Shown: one piece after another, positions 3,094-22,320 of the stretch
Layout: the number at the start of each line of letters is the position of its first letter
Position numbering within the stretch: the first letter of the stretch is position 1
DNA from: a virus
Reading direction: 5' to 3' (one strand)
Length of the DNA: 26,575 bases
Virus record (IMG/VR): IMGVR_UViG_3300042453_003902
Span: 1-26,575 of that record
Made by a program: the position numbers and the translations under genes
The notes under the pieces: model-generated
Told to the model about the DNA's origin: nothing
The model's database searches: none
What the model saw: only the letters and a program-made list of their open reading frames with translations

Positions 3094-3494
3094 TCATAGG
3101 TAATATCAGGGAAGGCCTACGGGTAAGGCTTGCTACCATTACGGGCCTTAGAACCTATGCGGAAATACCCGAAAGCATCAATGTACCCTGCGCAATTGTG
3201 GGGGTTCCTACAGAAATCAAGTTTGATGCCACGTTGAATCGTTCCAACGATTCCGCTGTCTTTCCAGTGCGCCTTATGGTTGCCAAGGCCCTGGATCGCA
3301 ATGCACAGCGGGCATTAGATGTCTATTTGCAGTCTACTGGGGCAAATTCAGTCAAAACAGTAATAGAGGCTGATAGCCAATTGGGTGGTGCCGCTAACAC
3401 TTTGATGGTTGAACGTGTCAGCGGGATCGGGGTTTATAATATAAGTGGAGTTGATTATCTGGGTGCGGAATTTCAGGTGAGGGTATGGGGATGA
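3090..3494 (+). CDS. Tail terminator / tail-completion-like protein
   Basis: The 134-residue product begins at an ATGA overlap with the previous gene. It has an N-terminal helix (NIREGLRVRLATI), a strand-rich middle and an ending GAEFQVRVWG, matching the size and layout of small tail terminator proteins encoded between gp10-like and tail-tube genes. No catalytic motif is expected or seen. The function rests mainly on gene order. Confidence 0.55.
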   Translation: MIIGNIREGLRVRLATITGLRTYAEIPESINVPCAIVGVPTEIKFDATLNRSNDSAVFPVRLMVAKALDRNAQRALDVYLQSTGANSVKTVIEADSQLGGAANTLMVERVSGIGVYNISGVDYLGAEFQVRVWG

Positions 3495-3715
3495 TCTACA
3501 TTGCCCTTAAAGGCGCCAGCCACGATCCTGCGGGCTTTAGTTGCGGGCCTGGCGGCATTATTCCCGCTGATCTTGTTCCTGTTTTCCAGCATGCTATCGA
3601 TGCAGGCGAAATTGTAGATAGCATGACGTACTTTGACCTGGCTAACGAAGATATTAGTTTGCCGATGGTGGATATTTCTACAGTTAACGCAGAAGCCATG
3701 GAGGGTTTGGACTAA
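3491..3715 (+). CDS. Small hypothetical tail-region protein
   Basis: The product is 74 residues when started at ATG 3491, preferred because it overlaps the previous stop as ATGA and sits at a workable distance from GAGGG (about 3479-3483); ATG 3485 is too close to that site. The protein is acidic with the segment ADLVPVFQHAIDAGEIVD. The stop TAA (3713-3715) overlaps the next ATG as TAATG, so it is coupled to the tail-tube genes. Family unknown. Confidence 0.6.
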   Translation: MIYIALKGASHDPAGFSCGPGGIIPADLVPVFQHAIDAGEIVDSMTYFDLANEDISLPMVDISTVNAEAMEGLD

Positions 3716-4560
3716 TGCCTTTTATTCGTGGCGGTTCTGCTCATGTGATGGTTGGTTCGCACAACCTGACGCCTTTTACCAATAATTGCAGCGTTCGTAT
3801 GGATGCTGGTTTGGTTGAAAACACTGTTTTCGGTGATACATACCGAGACTTTCAGGAAAACATCCAAACTGCCACGGTAAGCATCAGTGGCTTTTATGAT
3901 GTCCAGGCTTATGGTGCCCCAGGAACTGGCGCTGGTTCGGACGATATTGTTAGTGATCGGGTTACTTCAATCTCGCCTGGTATCCTGGCTCTAACCAATA
4001 CCATCGATACCACGAAGGGATATGCCCCTATTACCGTTGCATGGGCAGGTAATACTGGCGGAAATACCTGCTTTGTGGGGGCTGTTACGTCTGCCGATTA
4101 CGATACGGGCAATGATGTAGGTGGTTTGACCAGTTTTGCTGCAAATTACAATTGCGCAGCATCGTGGGAAGCATCCCTTGCAGGAACTAAGGGAACCACC
4201 CAGAAATCTGGCTTTAGCAGCCGTGGGGTTATCCTGGCCCCTCTGGCGACATACAGCAGTGGCGGATTCATTGGCAATGAACACGATAATGGCGCTGCAA
4301 CTCTAAATGGTGTCATTATCAATTTGCACGGGCAGTTTGTTGGTTCTTCTGGAACCTGTACCGTTAGGGTTGAACATTCCACTAGCCCTGGTGGTGTTGG
4401 TGCCACTACCGTTGCAACTTTTAGCGATTTGACCACTGTTACCGGCCCTTATGGGCAGAGCCTTATCATTCCGGGCACGATTAACCGTTATGTGCGGGCT
4501 TTTCTTGTTAGTAGCATGACCGGTGGCCAGACTTTGGCCGTTTCTTACGCCAGACTGTAG
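3715..4560 (+). CDS. Tail tube-like protein, long paralog with C-terminal Ig-like domain
   Basis: A 281-residue protein starting MPFIRGG, first of three tandem paralogs. Shared blocks are FIRG at the start, DTYRDFQENIQTATVSISGFYD near residues 42-63, and a late NDVGGLTSFAANYN block. This pattern fits siphophage tail tube proteins. Unlike its two partners it carries an extra C-terminal region (about residues 180-281: VRVEHSTSPGG, ATFSDLTTV, TINRYVRAFLV) that reads as a beta-sandwich, Ig-like add-on likely displayed outside the tail tube. Codon use is of the high-expression type. Role from family resemblance and gene order. Confidence 0.65.
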   Translation: MPFIRGGSAHVMVGSHNLTPFTNNCSVRMDAGLVENTVFGDTYRDFQENIQTATVSISGFYDVQAYGAPGTGAGSDDIVSDRVTSISPGILALTNTIDTTKGYAPITVAWAGNTGGNTCFVGAVTSADYDTGNDVGGLTSFAANYNCAASWEASLAGTKGTTQKSGFSSRGVILAPLATYSSGGFIGNEHDNGAATLNGVIINLHGQFVGSSGTCTVRVEHSTSPGGVGATTVATFSDLTTVTGPYGQSLIIPGTINRYVRAFLVSSMTGGQTLAVSYARL

Positions 4561-4572
4561 GGAGGGCTAATA

Positions 4573-4971
4573 ATGGCATTTATTCGTGGTTCTAAGGCAA
4601 CAATCACTTATAACTCGGTTGCTTTGACCAACTTCGTTAACCAATTCAGTATGTCGCGCGAAAGCCAGCTTATCGACATTACTACGCTGGGTGATACGTT
4701 TTCCGAATCGCAACAGAACCTAAAAAGCGCCAGGATCACCATGTCTGGCTTCTTTGATACGGCTGCATCTAGCACGCCTGATACCGTGCTTTCTGCTGCC
4801 CTTCTGGCGGGCACTAGCGCATCGCTAATTATTACTTACGTTGGAGCGACCACCAGAACCATTACTTGGGCTGGTGCGCGTGTTGCTAGTTACGAAATCA
4901 CGGCTGTAACCGATAACCTGGTTGCGTGGTCGGCAGAAATCCAGACTACTACCGTCGGCACCTATTCGTAA
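4573..4971 (+). CDS. Tail tube-like protein, short paralog
   Basis: A 132-residue protein starting MAFIRGS, preceded by GGAGGG. It aligns by eye with its neighbours in the blocks GDTFSESQQNLKSARITMSGFFD and GARVASYEITAV, but lacks the C-terminal extension of the first paralog. Probably a tail tube subunit or a variant used at one end of the tube. Twelve bases separate it from the previous gene and 14 from the next, so all three are likely on one transcript. Confidence 0.65.
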   Translation: MAFIRGSKATITYNSVALTNFVNQFSMSRESQLIDITTLGDTFSESQQNLKSARITMSGFFDTAASSTPDTVLSAALLAGTSASLIITYVGATTRTITWAGARVASYEITAVTDNLVAWSAEIQTTTVGTYS

Positions 4972-4985
4972 CGGAGGACCAATAA

Positions 4986-5441
4986 ATGCCATTTATTCGT
5001 GGTGGAAACGCTACTTTGGTCCTGGTTAAGCCTGGTCCTACTACTCAGACGCTTACCACGCAGGTTAATAACCTGAGTATTAGTTTTGATTCTGGTTTGA
5101 CCGAAACTAGCGTGCTTTCTGATACATACAGGGATTTTCAGGAAACTATCCTATCGGGCACCATTACAGTTAGTGGTTTCTTTGACGATACCAGCGTTGG
5201 AGCAACAGCAGGCGCGGATTACTTTCTTGGTGATGCCATCAATAACGATAGCCTGCTGAATTGGTCTGTTGTATTGGGAACTGGCACTACCCGCACCTAT
5301 CGCAATAGTGGTTATTCAACCTCGAGCCCTAGCACGTCGCATGGTGCTCGCATTGCCAGTTACGAACAGTCTAACGACGTTGGCGGCATTGCAGCCTTTA
5401 GCATGACGTTGAACATTCACGGAACGTGGGAAGTGGTCTAA
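4986..5441 (+). CDS. Tail tube-like protein, third paralog
   Basis: A 151-residue protein starting MPFIRGGN with GGAGG upstream. The block LSDTYRDFQETILSGTITVSGFFDD nearly repeats that of the first paralog, and the ending HGARIASYEQSNDVGGIAAFSMTLN repeats both partners. The stop TAA overlaps the chaperone ATG as TAATG. Any of the three could be the main tube subunit; this one is nearest the chaperone genes, the usual place of the major tail protein. Confidence 0.65.
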   Translation: MPFIRGGNATLVLVKPGPTTQTLTTQVNNLSISFDSGLTETSVLSDTYRDFQETILSGTITVSGFFDDTSVGATAGADYFLGDAINNDSLLNWSVVLGTGTTRTYRNSGYSTSSPSTSHGARIASYEQSNDVGGIAAFSMTLNIHGTWEVV

Positions 5442-5761
5442 TGAAGCCTGAATTGAAAGCCCTTCTGGCCCCTAAGCAGCAAGTGATGGAACTTGCGCCT
5501 GGTGTAGAGGTTCGCATCAAAGAACTTAGCCTGAAAGAGCGCATTAAGTGGCGGGCCAGCGTCCTGGATGGCGAAACCCTGAAACCTGAATGGGTGCAAT
5601 CGCTTCTTCAGGCTGCTGTTATGGATTTGGATGGGGAACCCATTTGGGCTTCTGTGGACGAAGTAGATGGGTCAGAAGCCATCCTTACCCAGTTGCTTAA
5701 GATGGTCCAGGCCGTAAATGGCCTGAATACTGAAGCTGTGGATGCCGCAGAGGGAAACTAA
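5441..5761 (+). CDS. Tail assembly chaperone, zero-frame product (lambda gpG-like)
   Basis: A 106-residue acidic protein beginning at ATG 5441, which overlaps the preceding stop. The layout (short beta N-terminus with GVEVRIKELSLKERIKW, helical C-terminus) and the position immediately before the tape measure gene match gpG-type tail assembly chaperones, which bind the tape measure during tail formation. Its last codons, GAG GGA AAC TAA, contain the slippery heptamer GGGAAAC, and a -1 open frame continues past the stop (see 5758-5952). Confidence 0.75.
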   Translation: MKPELKALLAPKQQVMELAPGVEVRIKELSLKERIKWRASVLDGETLKPEWVQSLLQAAVMDLDGEPIWASVDEVDGSEAILTQLLKMVQAVNGLNTEAVDAAEGN

Positions 5762-5827
5762 TACTGCTGCCCGAAATCCGCGTGGCAATGAAGCTATGCA
5801 GGGAACTAGGGATGACGCTAGGGCAGC
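5752..5827 (+). promoter_or_regulatory. Programmed -1 ribosomal frameshift signal
   Basis: G GGA AAC at 5752-5758 is in register with the zero frame (codons GGA AAC, then stop TAA). It is a canonical X XXY YYZ slippery heptamer, differing in the last base from the GGGAAAG of lambda G/GT. Seven bases downstream, GCTGCCC (5766-5772) can pair perfectly with GGGCAGC (5821-5827), a plausible stimulatory stem with a long loop. A slip yields a 170-residue fusion. Confidence 0.85.
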
Positions 5828-5952
5828 TTATGGACCAAATGTCATCTGCGGAATTCGTCTTATGGGTTGGCTTGTTTCAAGCAGAGGCAAAAGAAGAAGC
5901 CGAAAGGCAAGTAAGGGCTAAGGCAGCAGCAAAAGCGCAACGTAGGGGATAA
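5758..5952 (+). CDS. Tail assembly chaperone, -1 frame extension (lambda T-like part of GT)
   Basis: This 64-codon frame has no ribosome-binding site and no suitable start of its own, and is entered by -1 slippage from the upstream gene. It encodes a segment with KLCRELGMTLGQLMDQMSS followed by EFVLWVGLF, the pattern of T-like tail assembly proteins (minor tail protein T / DUF4035 type), then an Ala/Lys/Arg-rich helical tail. In lambda the fusion form bridges the tape measure and tail tube subunits. The stop is 2 bases before the tape measure GTG. Evidence is direct for the frame and slippery site, and by family analogy for function. Confidence 0.8.
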   Translation, partial: LILLPEIRVAMKLCRELGMTLGQLMDQMSSAEFVLWVGLFQAEAKEEAERQVRAKAAAKAQRRG

Positions 5953-5954
5953 CC

Positions 5955-8633
5955 GTGGCAGACGAATCTATTTCAGTAAAAATTGATGGTGATGCCAGGG
6001 GTTTTATCAAAGCAAGTGCGGAAGTTGCTAAAGCTGCCGAAAAGATGGCAGATACAGCAGAAGCCGCAATGGGTGATGCTGCTAAAGCCGCAAACAACCT
6101 CGAAGAAGAAATAAAGCAAGTAGGTAATGAGGCGGCGAAAGCAGCCCCAAAAGTAGACGGGCTTAATAAGTCACAGAGTGATTCCGCGAAAAGCAGTAAA
6201 GAAGCGGTAAGTGCATTTCAAAGCCTGAAAAATGCAACTAATGCGGCATTTGCAGCAATCATCACCAATCCATTTGGACAATTCGCAGCAGCCGTTGCTG
6301 TTGTAACCAAAGTCATCAATGAAGCCACAGAATCAGAACGGGAAGCCGCTGCAATGTTTGCGGCTTTCGGAAAAGATACAGCGGGGCTTGAAAAGACTTC
6401 CCGCCTGGTAAAAGAACTGGCAGATAGCACTGGCCTGTTTGATGAAGGCAATATTGCAGCAGGCGCAGCAGCCCTTAAAGAATTAGGGGCCACGCAAGGG
6501 CAGATTGAAGCCCTGTTGCCCGCTGCAACCAATCTTGCTGCTGTTTATGGCACAACCATACCTGATGCTGTTAAACGCCTGGCAGGTGGCATTGTAGGTA
6601 GCACTGAAGGCCTGCGCAATTTCGGCATTAACGTCAAGAACAATTCAACCACTGCCGAAAGATACGCTGCCATCCTGGAACGAAATGCCAGGGCCACCGA
6701 AGAAACAAAGCGGCTTTCAGATGGCCTTACGGGTTCCATGGCCCGCCTTGGTGTTGCAACCAATGAAGCGTTTGGCTCATTTGGTGAAAACTTCAGTGGC
6801 GCATTAACGCTTGCCATCGATGGCCTTACAAAACTGCTTCAGGCCATTGCTCTAATCCCGCCAGCGGTTAAACTCGTTGCAGAAAGCATTGTTGGCCTTA
6901 GTGGCAATATTGCCATTGCTATGGGTTCCATTGGGGAATCCTTGGAGAATCTATTTACAGGCAAGGGATTCAAAAGCCCGAAAACTGATATGTTCTGGAA
7001 CGCCTGGCGTAAGCAGGGCCAGGAATCCATTGATAAAACCTATAACGAATTCCAGAAGCGCCTTGGGGCCCTTCTTGGTGGGCCTACTGGCGCAGCTGTA
7101 GGAACTAATGGAATCCCTGATGTATCCAGTGGTTTGATTAAGCCACCAGGTGAGGAATCCTCGCCTGATGCCAAGAAACCTAAGACATTGTTGGAACGTG
7201 CGCAGGAACTTGCACGAACCATGATGTTGTATGGCAAAACCCAGGCAGAAGCGCAGGCGGCGGCTGGCGAGGAAATTCTAAAGGGTATTAATGCATGGGG
7301 TTTGAAGACTAAGCCTGGCCAGCCTGTTGTCGCTATCGGTAGCGCAGCAGGTGCACTAAAGCGCCAGCAAGAAGCCGGATTCCCTGGTGTTGATACCAGT
7401 AAAATATCGATGAACGATATTATGGCCGTTTTCGGATTTACCAGTGGTGGACAGCAGGCTAGCCGTCAAAATTTGATTACCGAAAGACTTTCCAAGCTGG
7501 AAACTCTACCTAGTGACTTTGCTAATATTTCTGACAAACTTGCGCTAGTTGCAGATGCTATCCGCCTTGCAGAATTAAATGTTAGAACGGCTCTGCCTGG
7601 TGACGAAGAAGAAGCCGCACGCAAGAACCTGCGCGACCTTAAGAACCAACAAACTAACCTTCTTAAGACGCAATCGGACATAAACGGGCAATTTCTTACC
7701 AAGTTTGCCGATGTCCTGAGTAGTTTTCTTGGCCAGTTTGCAAGCACGATAGGTGCATCATTTGCAGGCGGGCAAGGCGCAACAGGCGGTGATAAAGCCA
7801 GAGGATTTGCTGGTTTATTGCAAGGTGGCCTTGGAATCGCTGGAATGGCAGCAGGCCAGGCCACAATGATGCTTGGATCTATAACTGTCCCGGTTGTAGC
7901 GGTCATTGCTGCTGTTGGTTCGGCTATTGGTGTTCTTGGCAATATACTTGGTGGATTTTTGGACCAAACAGATCAGAACTTGGAAATAGCTAAAGAACAA
8001 TTGCAAGTTGCCAGAGATTCGCAGACTAGACTTGCACAAATTCAGGCTAACACTGGTAAATCCATAACTGAAGCAGGATTATCCGCTGGATTCATAACTG
8101 AATCACAAGCGGCTATTGAATCTCTTTTTTCTGGATTGCGGTCAGTTGCTGCATCAAATATGGGCACTTTGGGTGTTACTGGTCAAAAATTTGGAACTGT
8201 TGGCCAAATTCAAAATAAAATCACTGATTATTTGCAGGCTAATCCAGATGAGCTAAAAAGAATTGTTGAACCATTTGTAAAAGCAGGTGGTTCTGATAAG
8301 GCACTTACGGCTCTAACATATGCCCTTAGAGACTTGCCTGGTGAAGTTGGAGATGGCTTCTTTGGATTATTGCCAGAACAACGTAATTCTTTCATCGATG
8401 AGCTAGTAAAAGTATTCGGTGGTCTATCTGGTATGAAGAAAACAGAAGAAGAAAGAAAGTTTGATGCAGAAATGGCTGCAATTGGCTCCACTCCAAGAAA
8501 TCCGGTCTATGTATACGATGTGACGCCTAAAGAAGAGCAATTTACATTTGCTCCTAGGGAAGCGTTCTTCCGGGCTGCATCGATGCGCCAGCTAGGATAC
8601 AACGACGTTAATCTGTCAGCCGCACGGGCATAG
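5955..8633 (+). CDS. Tape measure protein
   Basis: An 892-residue protein starting at GTG 5955 (AGGGG upstream, two bases after the chaperone stop). The N-terminal 90 residues are Ala/Lys/Glu-rich and coiled-coil-like; hydrophobic stretches follow at about 90-115 and 280-320, and a strongly hydrophobic Gly/Ala region lies at about 600-680 (GITVPVVAVIAAVG-like). This is the usual build of tape measure proteins, which set tail length and may help DNA entry. Position after the G/GT chaperones confirms it. Roughly the last fifth of the gene (about 7960-8500) looks richer in A and T than the rest. There is no obvious lysozyme or peptidase domain. Confidence 0.85.
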   Translation: MADESISVKIDGDARGFIKASAEVAKAAEKMADTAEAAMGDAAKAANNLEEEIKQVGNEAAKAAPKVDGLNKSQSDSAKSSKEAVSAFQSLKNATNAAFAAIITNPFGQFAAAVAVVTKVINEATESEREAAAMFAAFGKDTAGLEKTSRLVKELADSTGLFDEGNIAAGAAALKELGATQGQIEALLPAATNLAAVYGTTIPDAVKRLAGGIVGSTEGLRNFGINVKNNSTTAERYAAILERNARATEETKRLSDGLTGSMARLGVATNEAFGSFGENFSGALTLAIDGLTKLLQAIALIPPAVKLVAESIVGLSGNIAIAMGSIGESLENLFTGKGFKSPKTDMFWNAWRKQGQESIDKTYNEFQKRLGALLGGPTGAAVGTNGIPDVSSGLIKPPGEESSPDAKKPKTLLERAQELARTMMLYGKTQAEAQAAAGEEILKGINAWGLKTKPGQPVVAIGSAAGALKRQQEAGFPGVDTSKISMNDIMAVFGFTSGGQQASRQNLITERLSKLETLPSDFANISDKLALVADAIRLAELNVRTALPGDEEEAARKNLRDLKNQQTNLLKTQSDINGQFLTKFADVLSSFLGQFASTIGASFAGGQGATGGDKARGFAGLLQGGLGIAGMAAGQATMMLGSITVPVVAVIAAVGSAIGVLGNILGGFLDQTDQNLEIAKEQLQVARDSQTRLAQIQANTGKSITEAGLSAGFITESQAAIESLFSGLRSVAASNMGTLGVTGQKFGTVGQIQNKITDYLQANPDELKRIVEPFVKAGGSDKALTALTYALRDLPGEVGDGFFGLLPEQRNSFIDELVKVFGGLSGMKKTEEERKFDAEMAAIGSTPRNPVYVYDVTPKEEQFTFAPREAFFRAASMRQLGYNDVNLSAARA

Positions 8634-15360: not shown

Positions 15361-17592
15361 CTAATACATGGCCATACGAATTCCGGATATACGTTCTTCC
15401 CTATTGCCACCTGTATTAGACCGATAGGTTTTATAGCCCATAGAATCAAGCGCCTGTTTGAAGTTGGTAATATTCAGGGGTTTAAAGCCATTGCTTATGG
15501 TGAAACTTGTGTAGTTTTCGTATGCAGTGGCACGGGATACGCTAGCAGTAGCGTCTGCCTCGCACTTTTCCTCTACCCATAGTGCTACGTTGTTGTTATT
15601 GGTACGCTGCTCATTCAATTCTGCCAACATCTTGGCAGATGGGTTGAATCCTTCTGCATACAGCATAGCCAGGCCCTGGATAGCCCAATTAAAGATGCCC
15701 GGCAATTCCTTAGCCAGTTTGCCCTGAAGTTGCGTATCAGGCGCGGCATAGCTGGGGCTTTCTACTTTGAACAGCAGCAATCGGCGCCAGACGCCTTTAG
15801 ACTTGTCTGTAATGCTAGGCATCTTGTTAGCGGAAATAATCCACCTGGCAGTTGATTCCGCACTGAAGGCTTTTGAATACTTTTGCTGCCAGACTATCTG
15901 ATCTTCCCCTGTAACCTTCTTGAATATGGCTTCGTCAAACACGTCTGCCTTGGTATCGCCATCGAAATTTACCAACTTACCGAACATTTCGATAGCAGAG
16001 AACTTTTCACTGATGTCCTGTAGCGAAACAGCGGATCGGTTTGCGGAACCAACCAACATTTCGATAGTGCGCAATACCGTGCCCTTACCGGCCCCGCCTT
16101 CACCTAACAGGATTGCAGCCTTCTGGTAACTGGTGTCGTATACCAGACAAAGCCCGATAAACTTCTGCAATTCCTTACGGGTATCGGCATCTGGCAATAG
16201 CGTAGCCAGGTGGCGCGTCCACAATGGGCAGGATGCTTCTTCGTCCAGGGCAAAAGGCAGTTTTGTAAGGGTAAAGTAATCTGGCGTATGCGGGATGCGC
16301 CATTGAATGACACCCATCGTTTCAAGGAACGATGAATCCTGCATTTCGTCTGGTTCCAGGATAGCCCGGGCATCAATGTAGGCCTGGACATCCAGGATGC
16401 AATCCTGAAGCACGATAAAGCTACCGGGCCTGGATTCATCCATCCAGGTATTCAGTTTCGGCTTGCTAGCCGTAATCTTGGCTAACCTGGTGATTGCGTC
16501 ATTCAGAAACGATGCTTTGCCGATAGCAGGCATACCCAATGCATCTAGCGTGTCCTGAATTGCAAAGTTAATTTCTTTCTTGCTCTTTTCGACGTAAACC
16601 CCTGCCTGATGTTGGTAAAAGTTTTCCGTAACCAGGTCGAACACCAAGCGCTCATTATCCTCTAGACGTTCTAGCGTATCCTGCGCAGCGGTCACAAAAG
16701 TATATTTCTCTGGTTCGGAAGCCTGGTATTCAGAAACTGTTTTGGCTTTTCGTTCCAATTCCGCAATAGGCAATGGGCCTTCTGGGTGGCTTATCGAGAA
16801 ATTGGTGTTTTCGTCTTTCAGAACCTCTAAAATTTGTTCGTAAGTGGCAGCGTATCGCTGCCTAACCACGCCTGCTAGAGAAACGAGATAGTTATCCCGG
16901 CCATCAGTCATCTTTGAAGCCGGGCTATCCGCTGCAAGTTTCTTCCGGAAAGTAGCAATGGTTCGGGCCTGGGGCCACTGTATAGCCCCCTGCTGGGGTT
17001 CCTTCTGGCTTGCCCGTGGTTTCTTCCGTGTTGCATCCATTAGAGCCGCTAACAGGGCTTCCGGAAGCAAGGGGATGCATCCATCTACAGTGGTTACTGT
17101 CCAGTCATAAATGACGGGCTTGCTGTCTTCCGGATCTTTCGGGCCAGGATGACGGGTAGACCCAGGACAAATGGCATTTCCGTTGCTTCCGTTACCAAGG
17201 ATATCGATACCCTCATGCAACTGGATACGGGATTTGCTTACCTGCTGCCCCGGGGCCAGACGGAAATAGTAATGTTTGCCCTTGCCCCCCTTACGGTAGG
17301 CCAGGCCCTGGAAATCGTCTAACTGATCACGAAACCACTGATCGGCTTCCGGGCCATCGGTATCCACGATCACTAACCCAGGATTATTAGGCCCCGTCAG
17401 AAGGGCCACGTTTTCCCCTGCCTTAAGGCGCTGGGTTCCTGTTTCTCTGGATATATGGCGATCCTGCCATCCAGGCCCACCAATAGGCTGCTTATTCCGT
17501 CCACTGCAAATGAACCTATCGAGGCTAATCCCGGATCGGGCTAGCGTGTCGCAATAGTGGTTCCAGATGTCGAGTGCGATCACTTGCTGCAT
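15361..17592 (-). CDS. Primase-polymerase / D5-type helicase replication protein
   Basis: A 743-residue protein. The N-terminal part is a primase-polymerase domain: IVDTDG with D77 and D79, KGKHYYFR (about 105-111) and a GNAICPGSTRHPG stretch (about 138-150). The C-terminal half is a D5-like superfamily 3 helicase: Walker A GEGGAGKGT (about 497-505), an acidic strand LVNFDGD (540-546), ISANKMP sensor-type motif (586-592) and VWRR (601-604). It would prime and unwind DNA at the phage origin, as P4 alpha or D5-type proteins do. Last gene of the leftward operon. A GGGGGTT sequence precedes the ATG. Confidence 0.88.
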   Translation of the reverse strand: MQQVIALDIWNHYCDTLARSGISLDRFICSGRNKQPIGGPGWQDRHISRETGTQRLKAGENVALLTGPNNPGLVIVDTDGPEADQWFRDQLDDFQGLAYRKGGKGKHYYFRLAPGQQVSKSRIQLHEGIDILGNGSNGNAICPGSTRHPGPKDPEDSKPVIYDWTVTTVDGCIPLLPEALLAALMDATRKKPRASQKEPQQGAIQWPQARTIATFRKKLAADSPASKMTDGRDNYLVSLAGVVRQRYAATYEQILEVLKDENTNFSISHPEGPLPIAELERKAKTVSEYQASEPEKYTFVTAAQDTLERLEDNERLVFDLVTENFYQHQAGVYVEKSKKEINFAIQDTLDALGMPAIGKASFLNDAITRLAKITASKPKLNTWMDESRPGSFIVLQDCILDVQAYIDARAILEPDEMQDSSFLETMGVIQWRIPHTPDYFTLTKLPFALDEEASCPLWTRHLATLLPDADTRKELQKFIGLCLVYDTSYQKAAILLGEGGAGKGTVLRTIEMLVGSANRSAVSLQDISEKFSAIEMFGKLVNFDGDTKADVFDEAIFKKVTGEDQIVWQQKYSKAFSAESTARWIISANKMPSITDKSKGVWRRLLLFKVESPSYAAPDTQLQGKLAKELPGIFNWAIQGLAMLYAEGFNPSAKMLAELNEQRTNNNNVALWVEEKCEADATASVSRATAYENYTSFTISNGFKPLNITNFKQALDSMGYKTYRSNTGGNREERISGIRMAMY

Positions 17593-17610: not shown

Positions 17611-17781
17611 TTAATTTGACTGATCCTTGTAGGTTCGCTCTATAGCAGACTTGATTAGCGTACCCTGCGGAACACCAGTGACTTCTGCTAGTTTGCGAAT
17701 GTAATCGATGGTATCTTCGTGAAGTTTGACAGCATAAAACTGCATTTCGGGCTTGCTAGGCCTACCGATCTTCTTTCTCAC
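17611..17781 (-). CDS. Ribbon-helix-helix DNA-binding protein (small)
   Basis: A 56-residue protein starting at GTG 17781 with AAGGTAGG upstream. After a basic start with GRPSKP (AT-hook-like) it reads MQFYAVKLHEDTIDYIRKL followed by GVPQGTLIKSAIERTY: one beta strand, a helix, a turn and a helix, as in CopG/Arc-type ribbon-helix-helix repressors. An internal ATG (residue 13) is possible but would drop the basic arm. It stands between the SSB-like gene and the primase-helicase and is a likely transcription or copy-control regulator acting as a dimer. Confidence 0.7.
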   Translation of the reverse strand: MRKKIGRPSKPEMQFYAVKLHEDTIDYIRKLAEVTGVPQGTLIKSAIERTYKDQSN

Positions 17782-17865: not shown

Positions 17866-18165
17866 TTAGAAGGGGAAATCCCGCTTGTTCTGGATGGCCT
17901 GGCGCTGCCGCTGGTTATTAGGGACATCCACTTTCACGGGCACAAAAGGTTCGGCAAGTTTCAGGATATGGGTAGGGGAACGATCATTGTTCGGTTCCCG
18001 GTTTGCCCAAATCTCGATTACGGCTTCTTCTAAGCCATATTCCACGGCTTCATTGATAACCTTCTGGATTTCATCGATTTTGACCTTGCTCTGAAGCAAA
18101 GTCAGGCCCCCCTTGGTTTGCTTCGACCACAGTCCGCAAATCCGCCATGACTTAGTTGCTGCCAT
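17866..18165 (-). CDS. Small replication protein with SSB-like C-terminal tail
   Basis: A 99-residue protein; GGAAGGGG precedes the ATG, which overlaps the end of the Bet/RecT gene by 14 bases. The N-terminal WRICGLWSKQTKGGLTLLQ and later AVIEIWANREPNNDRSPTHILKLAEPF form a short beta-strand pattern reminiscent of small OB-fold/DUF736-like phage proteins. The C-terminus ends RDFPF, close to the DDDIPF-type tip by which SSB proteins recruit partners. With Bet/RecT upstream and the primase-helicase downstream, single-strand binding is a reasonable inference; the acidic part of the tail is weak. Confidence 0.45.
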   Translation of the reverse strand: MAATKSWRICGLWSKQTKGGLTLLQSKVKIDEIQKVINEAVEYGLEEAVIEIWANREPNNDRSPTHILKLAEPFVPVKVDVPNNQRQRQAIQNKRDFPF

Positions 18166-19000
18166 TGTTATCCCCTTCCTGAATCGTTTTCAGGGCTTCA
18201 ATCAGGCTTTCGGCTTCCGTTACCGAAAGATCCTGTCGCTTGTTCTTTCCAGTGACCTGCTTCATATGAATCTGCATGCTGGCTTTGTCTAATTCCATGT
18301 CCCCAGAATTAAATACCGCTTTCCAGAGATAACCGATCTGCCGGGCCTGCTGTCCAGTGATCTTATCGTCCTGGCTATCCTGGGGGGCCTGGGTATCCTC
18401 TGATGCGTCCCGCTGCGCCTGGGTGGCTTGCTGGCCATCCTGGATGGCTTCAGGGGCATCCTGGCGGGCCTGGGTGGCCTGCTGCCCTGCCTGGGGCAAG
18501 GGGACAACATCCAGGCTATCCGCCTGCATCATTTCTTCTTGCGTGTAGATTCCGGATAGTTCACCAGGGAACGCCTTACGCAAAGCAAGGGCTTCCGCGC
18601 ATTTACCCAGCATGAGGAATGGCATTTTACGCCACATCGGGCTGTTCTGCTGCGCATACTCATTCCATCGGGCAGAAGCGGCAAATTGACCAATCTGGCC
18701 ATTAGGCAACAGCTTCAGAACGGTAACGCTGGCTTCCGTGGGGTAGCCGGTTTCGTGTACCTGGTATGCGGGATCGCTAGTTCCTGCATGCAGGCCAGTG
18801 CGGGCTGCAACCAATCGGTATCCATCGATACCCGTCTGGATAGACATCTTGCCGCCACGTTTAATCCCGTGCAACTGGCGCTGAAACAGATTCAAGCCAC
18901 TTGCCTTAGAAACCTCGATTAGATACTGGAATTCGGTGGCTGTCAGATCGGAAAACTGGCTTTTCAAAATATCCAGTTGCTCATTCGTGTAACTGATCAT
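18152..19000 (-). CDS. Single-strand annealing recombinase, Bet/RecT family
   Basis: The 282-residue product starts at ATG 19000, six bases after GGAGGG; an upstream in-frame extension lacks a ribosome-binding site. It shows the Bet-type core: ATEFQYLIEVSKASGLNLFQRQ, KMSIQTGIDGYRLVAARTG, and RWRKMPF-like / KCAEALALRKAFPGELSGIYTQEE. The protein pairs complementary single strands in phage recombination and replication. Residues about 169-212 are a Gln/Ala/Asp-rich linker with two copies of GQQATQA, followed by a helical C-terminal region (QARQIGYLWKAVFNS). No exonuclease partner is encoded beside it. Confidence 0.85.
   Translation of the reverse strand: MISYTNEQLDILKSQFSDLTATEFQYLIEVSKASGLNLFQRQLHGIKRGGKMSIQTGIDGYRLVAARTGLHAGTSDPAYQVHETGYPTEASVTVLKLLPNGQIGQFAASARWNEYAQQNSPMWRKMPFLMLGKCAEALALRKAFPGELSGIYTQEEMMQADSLDVVPLPQAGQQATQARQDAPEAIQDGQQATQAQRDASEDTQAPQDSQDDKITGQQARQIGYLWKAVFNSGDMELDKASMQIHMKQVTGKNKRQDLSVTEAESLIEALKTIQEGDNNGSN
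18365..18496 (-). repeat. Imperfect tandem repeat coding the Bet/RecT linker
   Basis: Repeated CCTGGGTGGC / CATCCTGG units encode two approximate copies of a GQQATQA-type peptide. The stretch is low complexity and a likely site of length change. Confidence 0.6.
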
Positions 19001-19005
19001 TTCGA

Positions 19006-19065
19006 ACCCTCCATTAGGGTAGAAAGAAACCCCATCCAGGGGGCAGTGGGTTGTTCTGGATGGGG
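19006..19065 (-). promoter_or_regulatory. Hairpin plus start-associated element before Bet/RecT
   Basis: On the minus strand CCCCATCCAG/CTGGATGGGG (19030-19039 with 19056-19065) forms a 10-pair stem; then ACCCTAATGGAGGGT (19020-19006) holds the Shine-Dalgarno site and can itself fold as ACCCT/AGGGT, six bases before the ATG. Confidence 0.7.
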
Positions 19066-19087
19066 CCATCTTCACTGTAGACCGATT

Positions 19088-21224: not shown

Positions 21225-21473
21225 TTAATCGACGGCCGAATAGTCACGCTGCCAGCGCACCATTTCCCGGTGTTCCTCACAAACGCGCTCATATTCGCGC
21301 TGCGCCAGGTCCATCTGGGGCCGGGTACGGTGGATGATGCCGAATTCCTCTGACTTCAAGTGATAGCTATAGCCGTTCGTGTAACCAACCACGGCTTCAT
21401 GAAAACCACGGAATTCATCCATGAAGATGACGCGGCTACCGGTATGGTACGGGTTCTTTTCGATGTAAGGCAT
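21225..21473 (-). CDS. Hypothetical first gene of the leftward early operon
   Basis: 82 residues from ATG 21473; as in the gene at 20272, the ATG four codons upstream belongs to the repeated element. The N-terminal half is beta-like (GSRVIFMDEFRGFHEAVVGYTNGYSYHL) and the C-terminal half a charged helix (MDLAQREYERVCEEHREMV). Family unknown. It is nearest the putative early promoter, so probably expressed first. Confidence 0.65.
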   Translation of the reverse strand: MPYIEKNPYHTGSRVIFMDEFRGFHEAVVGYTNGYSYHLKSEEFGIIHRTRPQMDLAQREYERVCEEHREMVRWQRDYSAVD

Positions 21474-21477
21474 TGTT

Positions 21478-21517
21478 CCCTCCATTAGGGATGCAGTATG
21501 GGTGGCCCCCTGGCCAC
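21478..21517 (-). promoter_or_regulatory. Hairpin plus start-associated element
   Basis: GTGGCC (21502-21507) pairs with GGCCAC (21512-21517). Then read leftward TCCCTAATGGAGGGA (21491-21477) can fold with T-A in place of the A-T closing pair found in other copies, an apparent compensatory change. Confidence 0.7.
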
Positions 21518-21524
21518 AAAATTA

Positions 21525-21554
21525 GTTGTAACAAAACCCTGGCCAGGCTGTCAA
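21525..21554 (-). promoter_or_regulatory. Leftward early promoter candidate with palindrome in spacer
   Basis: On the minus strand, TTGACA (21554-21549) is a perfect -35 and TACAAC (21530-21525) a 4/6 match to -10, with 18 bases between. The spacer contains the perfect 10-base palindrome CCTGGCCAGG (21538-21547), a possible operator. It would drive the operon beginning at 21473. Confidence 0.4.
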
Positions 21555-21562
21555 ATCCTGCT

Positions 21563-21658
21563 TTGGTCAAGTGACCGGTCAAGTCTTGGTCAAGTCTTGG
21601 TCAGCCTGTAGATCCGCTCCTGGTCAGGCTTTACAGGTTTGGTCAAGTTGGTCAATAG
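21563..21658 (+). repeat. Iteron array, left half
   Basis: Seven direct copies of a GGTCA core, most as TTGGTCAAG: cores start at 21565, 21577, 21588, 21599, 21622, 21641 and 21650. The first four are 11-12 bases apart, one helical turn, so a protein would bind one face of the DNA. Confidence 0.75.
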
Positions 21659-21756
21659 AAAAAGTAAAAAGTGTATATGACGCGACCCATTTAGTAAAAA
21701 AGTTTAATTAGAAAGCAGGTAGATCCCTGTAGAAAGAAAAGTTTTCGTCAAAACAC
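21659..21756. other. A-rich centre of the putative replication origin
   Basis: Between the two opposed iteron arrays lies a gene-free, A-rich stretch (for example AGAAAAAGTAAAAAGTGTAT and TAAAAAAGTTTAATTAGAAA) that would melt easily. With the arrays it forms an origin-like unit. Divergent promoters may also lie here. Confidence 0.55.
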
Positions 21757-21757
21757 A

Positions 21758-21839
21758 TGACCAACGTGACCAAAGCCGGGAAAGCCGCGCCATATCTCGA
21801 TTTACCGGATTTGACCAAAGACTTGACCAACTTGACCAA
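21758..21839 (-). repeat. Iteron array, right half (inverted)
   Basis: Five copies of TGACCAA, the reverse complement of the left-array core, start at 21758, 21767, 21812, 21824 and 21833, with 9- or 12-base spacing inside each cluster. An open frame from ATG 21757 would turn them into a repetitive LTK/LTN peptide, but it has no ribosome-binding site, so this is better read as noncoding DNA. Confidence 0.7.
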
Positions 21840-21900
21840 ATGTTTCGTTAGAACCGAATTTCTGGGGTATGATCATCGTGGAAGCATATTGGGGGCAATA

Positions 21901-22320
21901 ATGGACATCCATTGGGACGCCGAAAGCCAAATGCTGGTTATCCAGTCAGAAGACATCCCTGTTAGAACCAAACCACGGCCACGGGCCACGAAGTGGGGGG
22001 TTCATATGCCCCGGGAATATCAGGAATGGAAAGCCCTTATACGCCAGGCCATCGATACGACTATCGAGGAACGTTATTCAAAGAAGCAAACACTGTTCGG
22101 CAAACAGCCCGTTTCTATGTGGCTTCTGGTTGCTGCTAGCCGTGGGGATGCGGATAACGCAGCAGGCGGGATTATGGACGCCTTCACGGGCAGCGTTTGG
22201 GACGATGATCGCCAGGTAATGGAGCTCCATATCTGGAAAGTCCCTAAGAAGCAATTGGGCTATCACTGGAAATGCAGAGTGATGCCCAAAATAGCCACGT
22301 TTGATGACATCGGGCAATAA
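21901..22320 (+). CDS. rusA: RusA-like Holliday junction resolvase
   Basis: 139 residues from ATG 21901, chosen because GGGGG lies a few bases upstream and the length then fits RusA (about 120 residues); the in-frame ATG at 21757 has no such signal and runs through iterons. Family features are IPVRTKPRPRATKWG near the N-terminus and the acidic motif GDADNAAGGIMDAF ... VWDDDRQV. In E. coli RusA the metal ligands are in D-x-D-N and the later DD; those aspartates are present, but the lysine expected three residues after the Asn (K76 in E. coli) is Gly here. It would process branched DNA from replication or recombination before packaging, if active. Confidence 0.75.
   Translation: MDIHWDAESQMLVIQSEDIPVRTKPRPRATKWGVHMPREYQEWKALIRQAIDTTIEERYSKKQTLFGKQPVSMWLLVAASRGDADNAAGGIMDAFTGSVWDDDRQVMELHIWKVPKKQLGYHWKCRVMPKIATFDDIGQ

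Follow-up and report, generated by a model that had tools for sequence, protein, structure and literature searches.

Our analysis points to positions 21563-21839 as the likely replication origin of a tailed phage, a site that would be bound and melted by the phage's own primase-helicase. The window, by which we mean the whole stretch of DNA that was analyzed, comprises 26,575 bp (positions 1-26,575 of IMG/VR record IMGVR_UViG_3300042453_003902). An origin at this location had been suggested by a sequence-only reading of the window. The proposal is supported by a core that forms the weakest duplex of the window, by the same architecture beside primase-helicases elsewhere, and by a SaPI5-like fold of the phage's primase-helicase, which ends in a winged helix. 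Compared with the known PICI/SaPI layout, what is new here is that the arrays belong to a tailed phage and are detached from the helicase gene by ~4 kb.

The phage genome

A relative of the phage, L008, is 94% identical to it over 6.5 kb neighbouring the iteron region. Since L008 contains 4.1 kb (its positions 3345-7451) that are missing from the window and join its end to its start, we estimate the phage genome at about 30.7 kb, and the window is incomplete as given. The virion genes of the phage include long tail-like genes and a capsid gene, the latter matching phage major capsid proteins in tblastn. When the right part of the window was compared with known phages by megablast, no match was returned. 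GC skew, which had been proposed as a check on the origin, does turn near 21 kb. However, gene orientation turns there too, and the skew was left out of the evidence because it is confounded by gene direction. Elsewhere in the window, a RecT/Bet-type annealing protein (18152-19075) has a GemA-like stretch at its C-terminus (PF06252, 27.5 bits; cut-off, 27), which is an unusual pairing.

Iteron arrays and AT-rich core

Seven GGTCA cores lie on one strand and are followed by five inverted copies, just as had been described. The left array (21563-21656, plus strand) consists of seven [T/C]TGGTCA(A)(G) sites with cores starting at 21565, 21577, 21588, 21599, 21622, 21641 and 21650. The steps between these cores are 12, 11, 11, 23, 19 and 9 bp, which places the first four repeats about one helical turn apart, again in agreement with the earlier description. 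An extra inverted core at 21572 forms, together with the site at 21577, the palindrome TGACCGGTCA (21572-21581). The right array (21758-21839, minus strand) holds the five inverted sites, whose TGACC cores start at 21758, 21767, 21812, 21824 and 21833 (steps of 9, 45, 12 and 9 bp). Over the twelve sites the consensus is [T/C]TGGTCA(A)(G)(T) with GGTCA invariant, and the iteron of this phage is TTGGTCAAG. The iterons next to the weak core point towards it.

The window contains 15 copies of TTGGTCA, 10 of them in the 415-bp intergenic region, where 0.05 would be expected. Shuffles of the whole window gave a mean of 3.7 copies and a maximum of 8, versus the 15 seen. Across the rest of the window, no heptamer exceeds five copies in any 415-bp stretch, and no second iteron array was found in the window or in the 4.1-kb remainder known from L008. 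The repeats are also present in this close relative, a point that the sequence-only reading had singled out for checking. L008 keeps all cores but the one at 21622, where GGTCA has become GTTCA, and the last step of its right array is 10 bp where that of this phage is 9 bp.

The AT-rich core between the arrays (21656-21757, no strand assigned) is 102 bp long, with 45% A and 31% GC, which fits the roughly 100 A-rich bases originally reported. Calculated from nearest-neighbour energies, the lowest stability among all 50-, 80- and 100-bp stretches of the 26,575 bp falls in this core, and duplex stability was not used in finding the repeats. The core is nearly unchanged in L008. Such weakness would be expected of a DNA unwinding element, for which the core is a candidate.

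We regard it as extremely unlikely that the arrays are tandem repeats without function, born of chance or slippage. Many bacterial chromosomes also contain TTGGTCANN triple repeats in tandem that are apparently unrelated, but the irregular spacing and two orientations seen here make slippage a poor source. Moreover, the repeats of this phage are conserved in L008 and flank the weakest duplex of the window.

Flanking genes, promoters and the ribbon-helix-helix protein

The iteron region is intergenic and separates two divergent operons, with an 86-aa gene on the minus strand and RusA on the plus strand. The 86-aa protein (21225-21485, minus strand), an open reading frame that is the first gene of the leftward operon, had no family match above cut-off. 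The rightward operon begins with a RusA-like Holliday junction resolvase (21901-22320, plus strand; Pfam RusA, 44.7 bits; phrog_140). The earliest possible start of RusA is 21757. Because L008 has an in-frame TAA in that upstream extension, we place the start at 21901 and consider the arrays non-coding, which upholds the earlier statement that the region is gene-free if the resolvase starts there.

A candidate leftward promoter, TTGACA-18-TACAAC (21525-21554, minus strand), matches 10 of 12 consensus bases and is located 8 bp outside the left array, and both of its hexamers are conserved in L008. No consensus promoter passed a standard promoter scan, which missed this one because its -10 box has C at position 6. 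For the rightward (RusA) promoter, a possible -10 box, TATGAT (21868-21873, plus strand), was seen ~30 bp outside the right array; it is a weak candidate with no clear -35.

A 56-aa ribbon-helix-helix (RHH) protein is encoded directly upstream of the primase gene (17611-17781, minus strand; phrog_3887, E 3.4e-8), and it is a rival candidate for iteron binding or for autoregulation of the primase. ORF56 of the archaeal plasmid pRN1 is an RHH protein as well. In that plasmid the small regulator gene orf56 directly precedes the PrimPol-helicase gene orf904, an order matched in this phage, and its product is described as a repressor or copy-control protein of the PrimPol operon (PMC4234260). In contrast to this phage, a stem-loop follows orf904 in pRN1, where no iterons were found (PMC4234260).

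With this gene order before the primase, with arrays set within the divergent region between both early operons, with a candidate promoter element outside each array and with the first four sites at helical spacing, the arrays could be read as operators. The RHH protein or the primase-helicase would then regulate both divergent early promoters, and the A-rich core would be a flexible spacer only. We consider this improbable, since similar arrays in other phages are mostly 3' of primase-helicase genes and not in divergent promoters, and since an operator has no need to include the weakest duplex of the window. In addition, the RHH family was not found in the eight array-bearing records tested, which include some fragments and the near relative without this region; the E. 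coli control was positive. For the same reason we favour the primase-helicase over the RHH protein as the candidate iteron binder. Neither the helicase association nor the weak core is accounted for by an operator role alone. The arrays may additionally regulate the flanking promoters, because one lies close on each side.

Primase-helicase and proposed mechanism

The proposed iteron binder is a 743-aa primase-helicase (15361-17592, minus strand) encoded by the last gene of the leftward operon, so that the iteron arrays lie ~4 kb upstream of this gene, at the other end of the operon. Profile matches identify it as a PrimPol fused to a D5/DUF5906 SF3 helicase, the families matched being Prim-Pol, DUF5906, RFX and Pox_D5. 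It also matches TIGR01613 (primase_Cterm, 'phage/plasmid primase, P4 family') with 172.5 bits versus a cut-off of 108.7. No viral contig was recovered when the primase was used as a single-sequence query. A structure model was built with 18 sequences; its N-terminal half is poor, and the helicase and C-terminal parts are good. In this model, residues 668-743 follow the order helix-strand-helix-helix-strand-strand, which is that of a winged helix, and residues 672-740 weakly match the DNA-binding domain of human RFX1 (1dp7, E 0.04). The best structural match was the SaPI5 primase-helicase (7ola/7om0; Z 29.9 over residues 291-743), which was also ranked first by Foldseek.

Returning to the arrays as an origin, we infer that iteron binding, core melting, priming and replication are carried out by the primase-helicase. 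The C-terminal winged helix of the PrimPol-D5 protein would bind the TTGGTCA iterons on both sides, and two hexamers would probably be loaded facing each other. Melting of the AT-rich core between the hexamers would deliver one strand to each of them, and the PrimPol domain would prime for the host polymerase. The primase-helicase may also regulate its own operon, as the arrays abut two outward promoters and the leftward one lies just outside the left array. We count against an origin the distance of ~4 kb between the array and the primase gene and the irregular iteron steps, which range from 9 to 45 bp.

Similar arrays in other phages

The architecture seen here is found beside helicases of the same superfamily in other phages. 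When contigs were searched for two TTGGTCA pairs facing each other across 88-118 bp, only L008 and one unrelated contig, L009, were recovered, and the arrays of L009 are 3' of a Toprim/DUF927 primase-helicase. A second search, for three TTGGTCA at 9-bp steps, yielded 16 viral stretches and 110 in bacterial genome contigs. A primase-helicase adjoins five of the 16 viral triple arrays, namely those of L009, L011 (VapE), L014 (PrimPol-VapE), L019 (BT4734_N-VapE, with VRR_NUC beyond) and L023 (PrimPol-VapE). The reversed heptamer, ACTGGTT, was used as a control; of its 86 stretches, 68 were inside long open frames and none was beside such a helicase (5/16 versus 0/86, Fisher p 5e-5).

Opposed TTGGTCA arrays were located 3' of primase-helicase genes in L009, L011, L019 and L023, and in the bacterial genome contigs L055, L057 and L104, where the genes are of VapE or DUF927 type. 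Contig L301 has opposed TTGGTCA groups beside a gene that is RuvC-like by inspection only, with no family match, and the only DUF5906 helicase on this contig, a PrimPol-like fusion, is ~12 kb from the array. L301 appears to repeat the detached arrangement of this phage. Its repeats next to the weak core point towards it, as they do here, and those of L011, L019 and L057 point away.

Some candidates were not retained. L010 (DnaB) was set aside as an origin parallel as its repeats fall within an open frame, and L014 is a weak parallel in that its array lies 5' of the gene and has repeats in a single orientation. Most triple arrays of bacterial contigs looked like plain chromosomal tandem repeats without replication genes, and their use as evidence was limited to L055, L057 and L104. 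The TTGGTCANN triple tandem repeats (L025-L134) of many bacterial chromosomes are often at gene starts, where they encode LTNLTN- or DQTDQT-like peptides, and have no apparent function.

To avoid bias, loci were also picked by VapE helicase and not by repeat, and the 80 viral loci obtained were reduced to 36 non-redundant ones. A repeat cluster, defined as a heptamer repeated at least five times in 400 bp, was present in 24 of the 36. In 17 of these 24 loci the cluster starts between -60 and +700 of the helicase stop codon and mostly no more than 80 bp from it (binomial p ~2e-12 if 10% were expected). The heptamers vary by clade and include GTCACCA, GTCCCAA, GTCCAAC, GGACCCA, CCTTGCC, GAGCGAC, ACGTAGA and others. 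When array loci of every kind were pooled (27 loci), the array contained the weakest 60-bp duplex of its locus in 18 (0.8 expected), and the array duplex was in the top 1% least stable of the locus in 24.

Relatives of the phage's own helicase gave a more mixed picture. Of the 32 D5-type relatives scanned, L306 (31% identity) and L327 have arrays of 8-9 copies directly 3' of the gene or of a small downstream neighbour, and L331 has an array just 5' of the gene. No obvious iteron array was seen in the remaining ones. We count this against an origin, along with the finding that similarity of the helicase C-terminus did not clearly predict the iteron motif better than core similarity did. In L306, the arrays at 1740-2150, directly downstream of the D5-type helicase, are opposed 9-bp repeats of CTTGTCATT.

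The association of arrays with helicases also bears on whether the region could instead be bound by another phage protein as a site of partition, packaging or recombination, which we judge very unlikely. The region adjoins RusA, and opposed repeat arrays occur in centromere-like sites too. However, no ParA or ParB was recognized among the proteins examined, the candidate terminase small subunit is ~2 kb away from the iteron region, and a site of this kind would leave the array-helicase association unexplained.

Comparison with known origins

The layout most like that of this phage is found in the pri-rep origins of PICIs and SaPIs (EcCICFT073, SaPIbov1 and SaPI5), which also have two iteron sets around an AT-rich region. 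E. coli PICI origins are described as 'always' consisting of two iteron sets flanking an AT-rich region, and one of them replicated a plasmid (PMC6092414). The Rep helicases of SaPIs recognize origin iterons through their C-terminal domain (PMC7581432). The PICI/SaPI initiator is a primase-helicase, or a helicase, with a C-terminal DNA-binding domain, and a counterpart is encoded here by the same genome. In contrast to this phage, which has virion genes, PICIs and SaPIs are satellites without virion genes of their own, and their iterons differ from TTGGTCAAG. Their origins, like most VapE origins, are directly downstream of the gene, whereas the arrays here are in a divergent promoter region beside RusA. 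Because the phage is tailed and the arrays are ~4 kb from the helicase gene, we do not class the region as a PICI/SaPI origin. It does share the features of SF3 (D5/VapE) helicase-associated iteron origins in the broad sense, with opposed arrays spanning the weakest duplex and an SF3-type primase-helicase in the genome.

P4 had been named as the nearest comparison. This is fair with regard to the alpha protein, as a P4-family primase-helicase (TIGR01613) is common to P4 and this phage and binding to short iterons is proposed. It is not the closest, however, since P4 has two separate cis regions, ori and crr, and a single array was found here in the window and the 4.1-kb remainder from L008; the PICI/SaPI layout fits better. 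The putative origin of SCCmec Cch2 is similar in that short direct repeats are bound by the C-terminal domain of a D5/Primase_Cterm helicase (PMC7581432). It differs from that of this phage in that its iterons number only three, are 5 nt long and directly follow the helicase gene, and in that the helicase has no fused primase. The putative VapE-side origins of IMG/VR phages (L011, L019, L023, L057, L261 and L290, among others) resemble the present one in their opposed 9-10 bp iterons around the weakest duplex of the locus, with TTGGTCA in several. They differ in that the helicase is VapE and the array is directly 3' of its gene, whereas here the helicase is D5/DUF5906 and the array is detached.

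TTGGTCA at 9-bp steps appears to recur at putative origins of D5/DUF5906, VapE and DUF927/Toprim primase-helicases in phages of apparently unrelated hosts. We suggest only tentatively, and with low confidence, that this reflects a shared winged-helix code or an accessory binder and not independent invention. If a shared recognition code were true, the origins of SF3-helicase phages would be readable from sequence. Our comparison suggests that such sites could be predicted in many other phages, the rule being that a D5- or VapE-type primase-helicase goes with opposed 9-10 bp repeats that span the weakest duplex and often follow the helicase gene immediately on its 3' side. Based on this phage, the proposed origin can also sit apart from that gene. 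Each candidate origin would be testable with one protein and one short DNA.

A gene for a nuclease of the Holliday-junction kind was seen on the far side of several arrays, as with RusA here (21901-22320). The far-side genes of L011 (473-937, resembling that of L057) and L301 (118-684, RuvC-like by eye) had no Pfam match above cut-off. In L019 (5200-5595) and L057 (3181-3648), the far-side gene is VRR_NUC.
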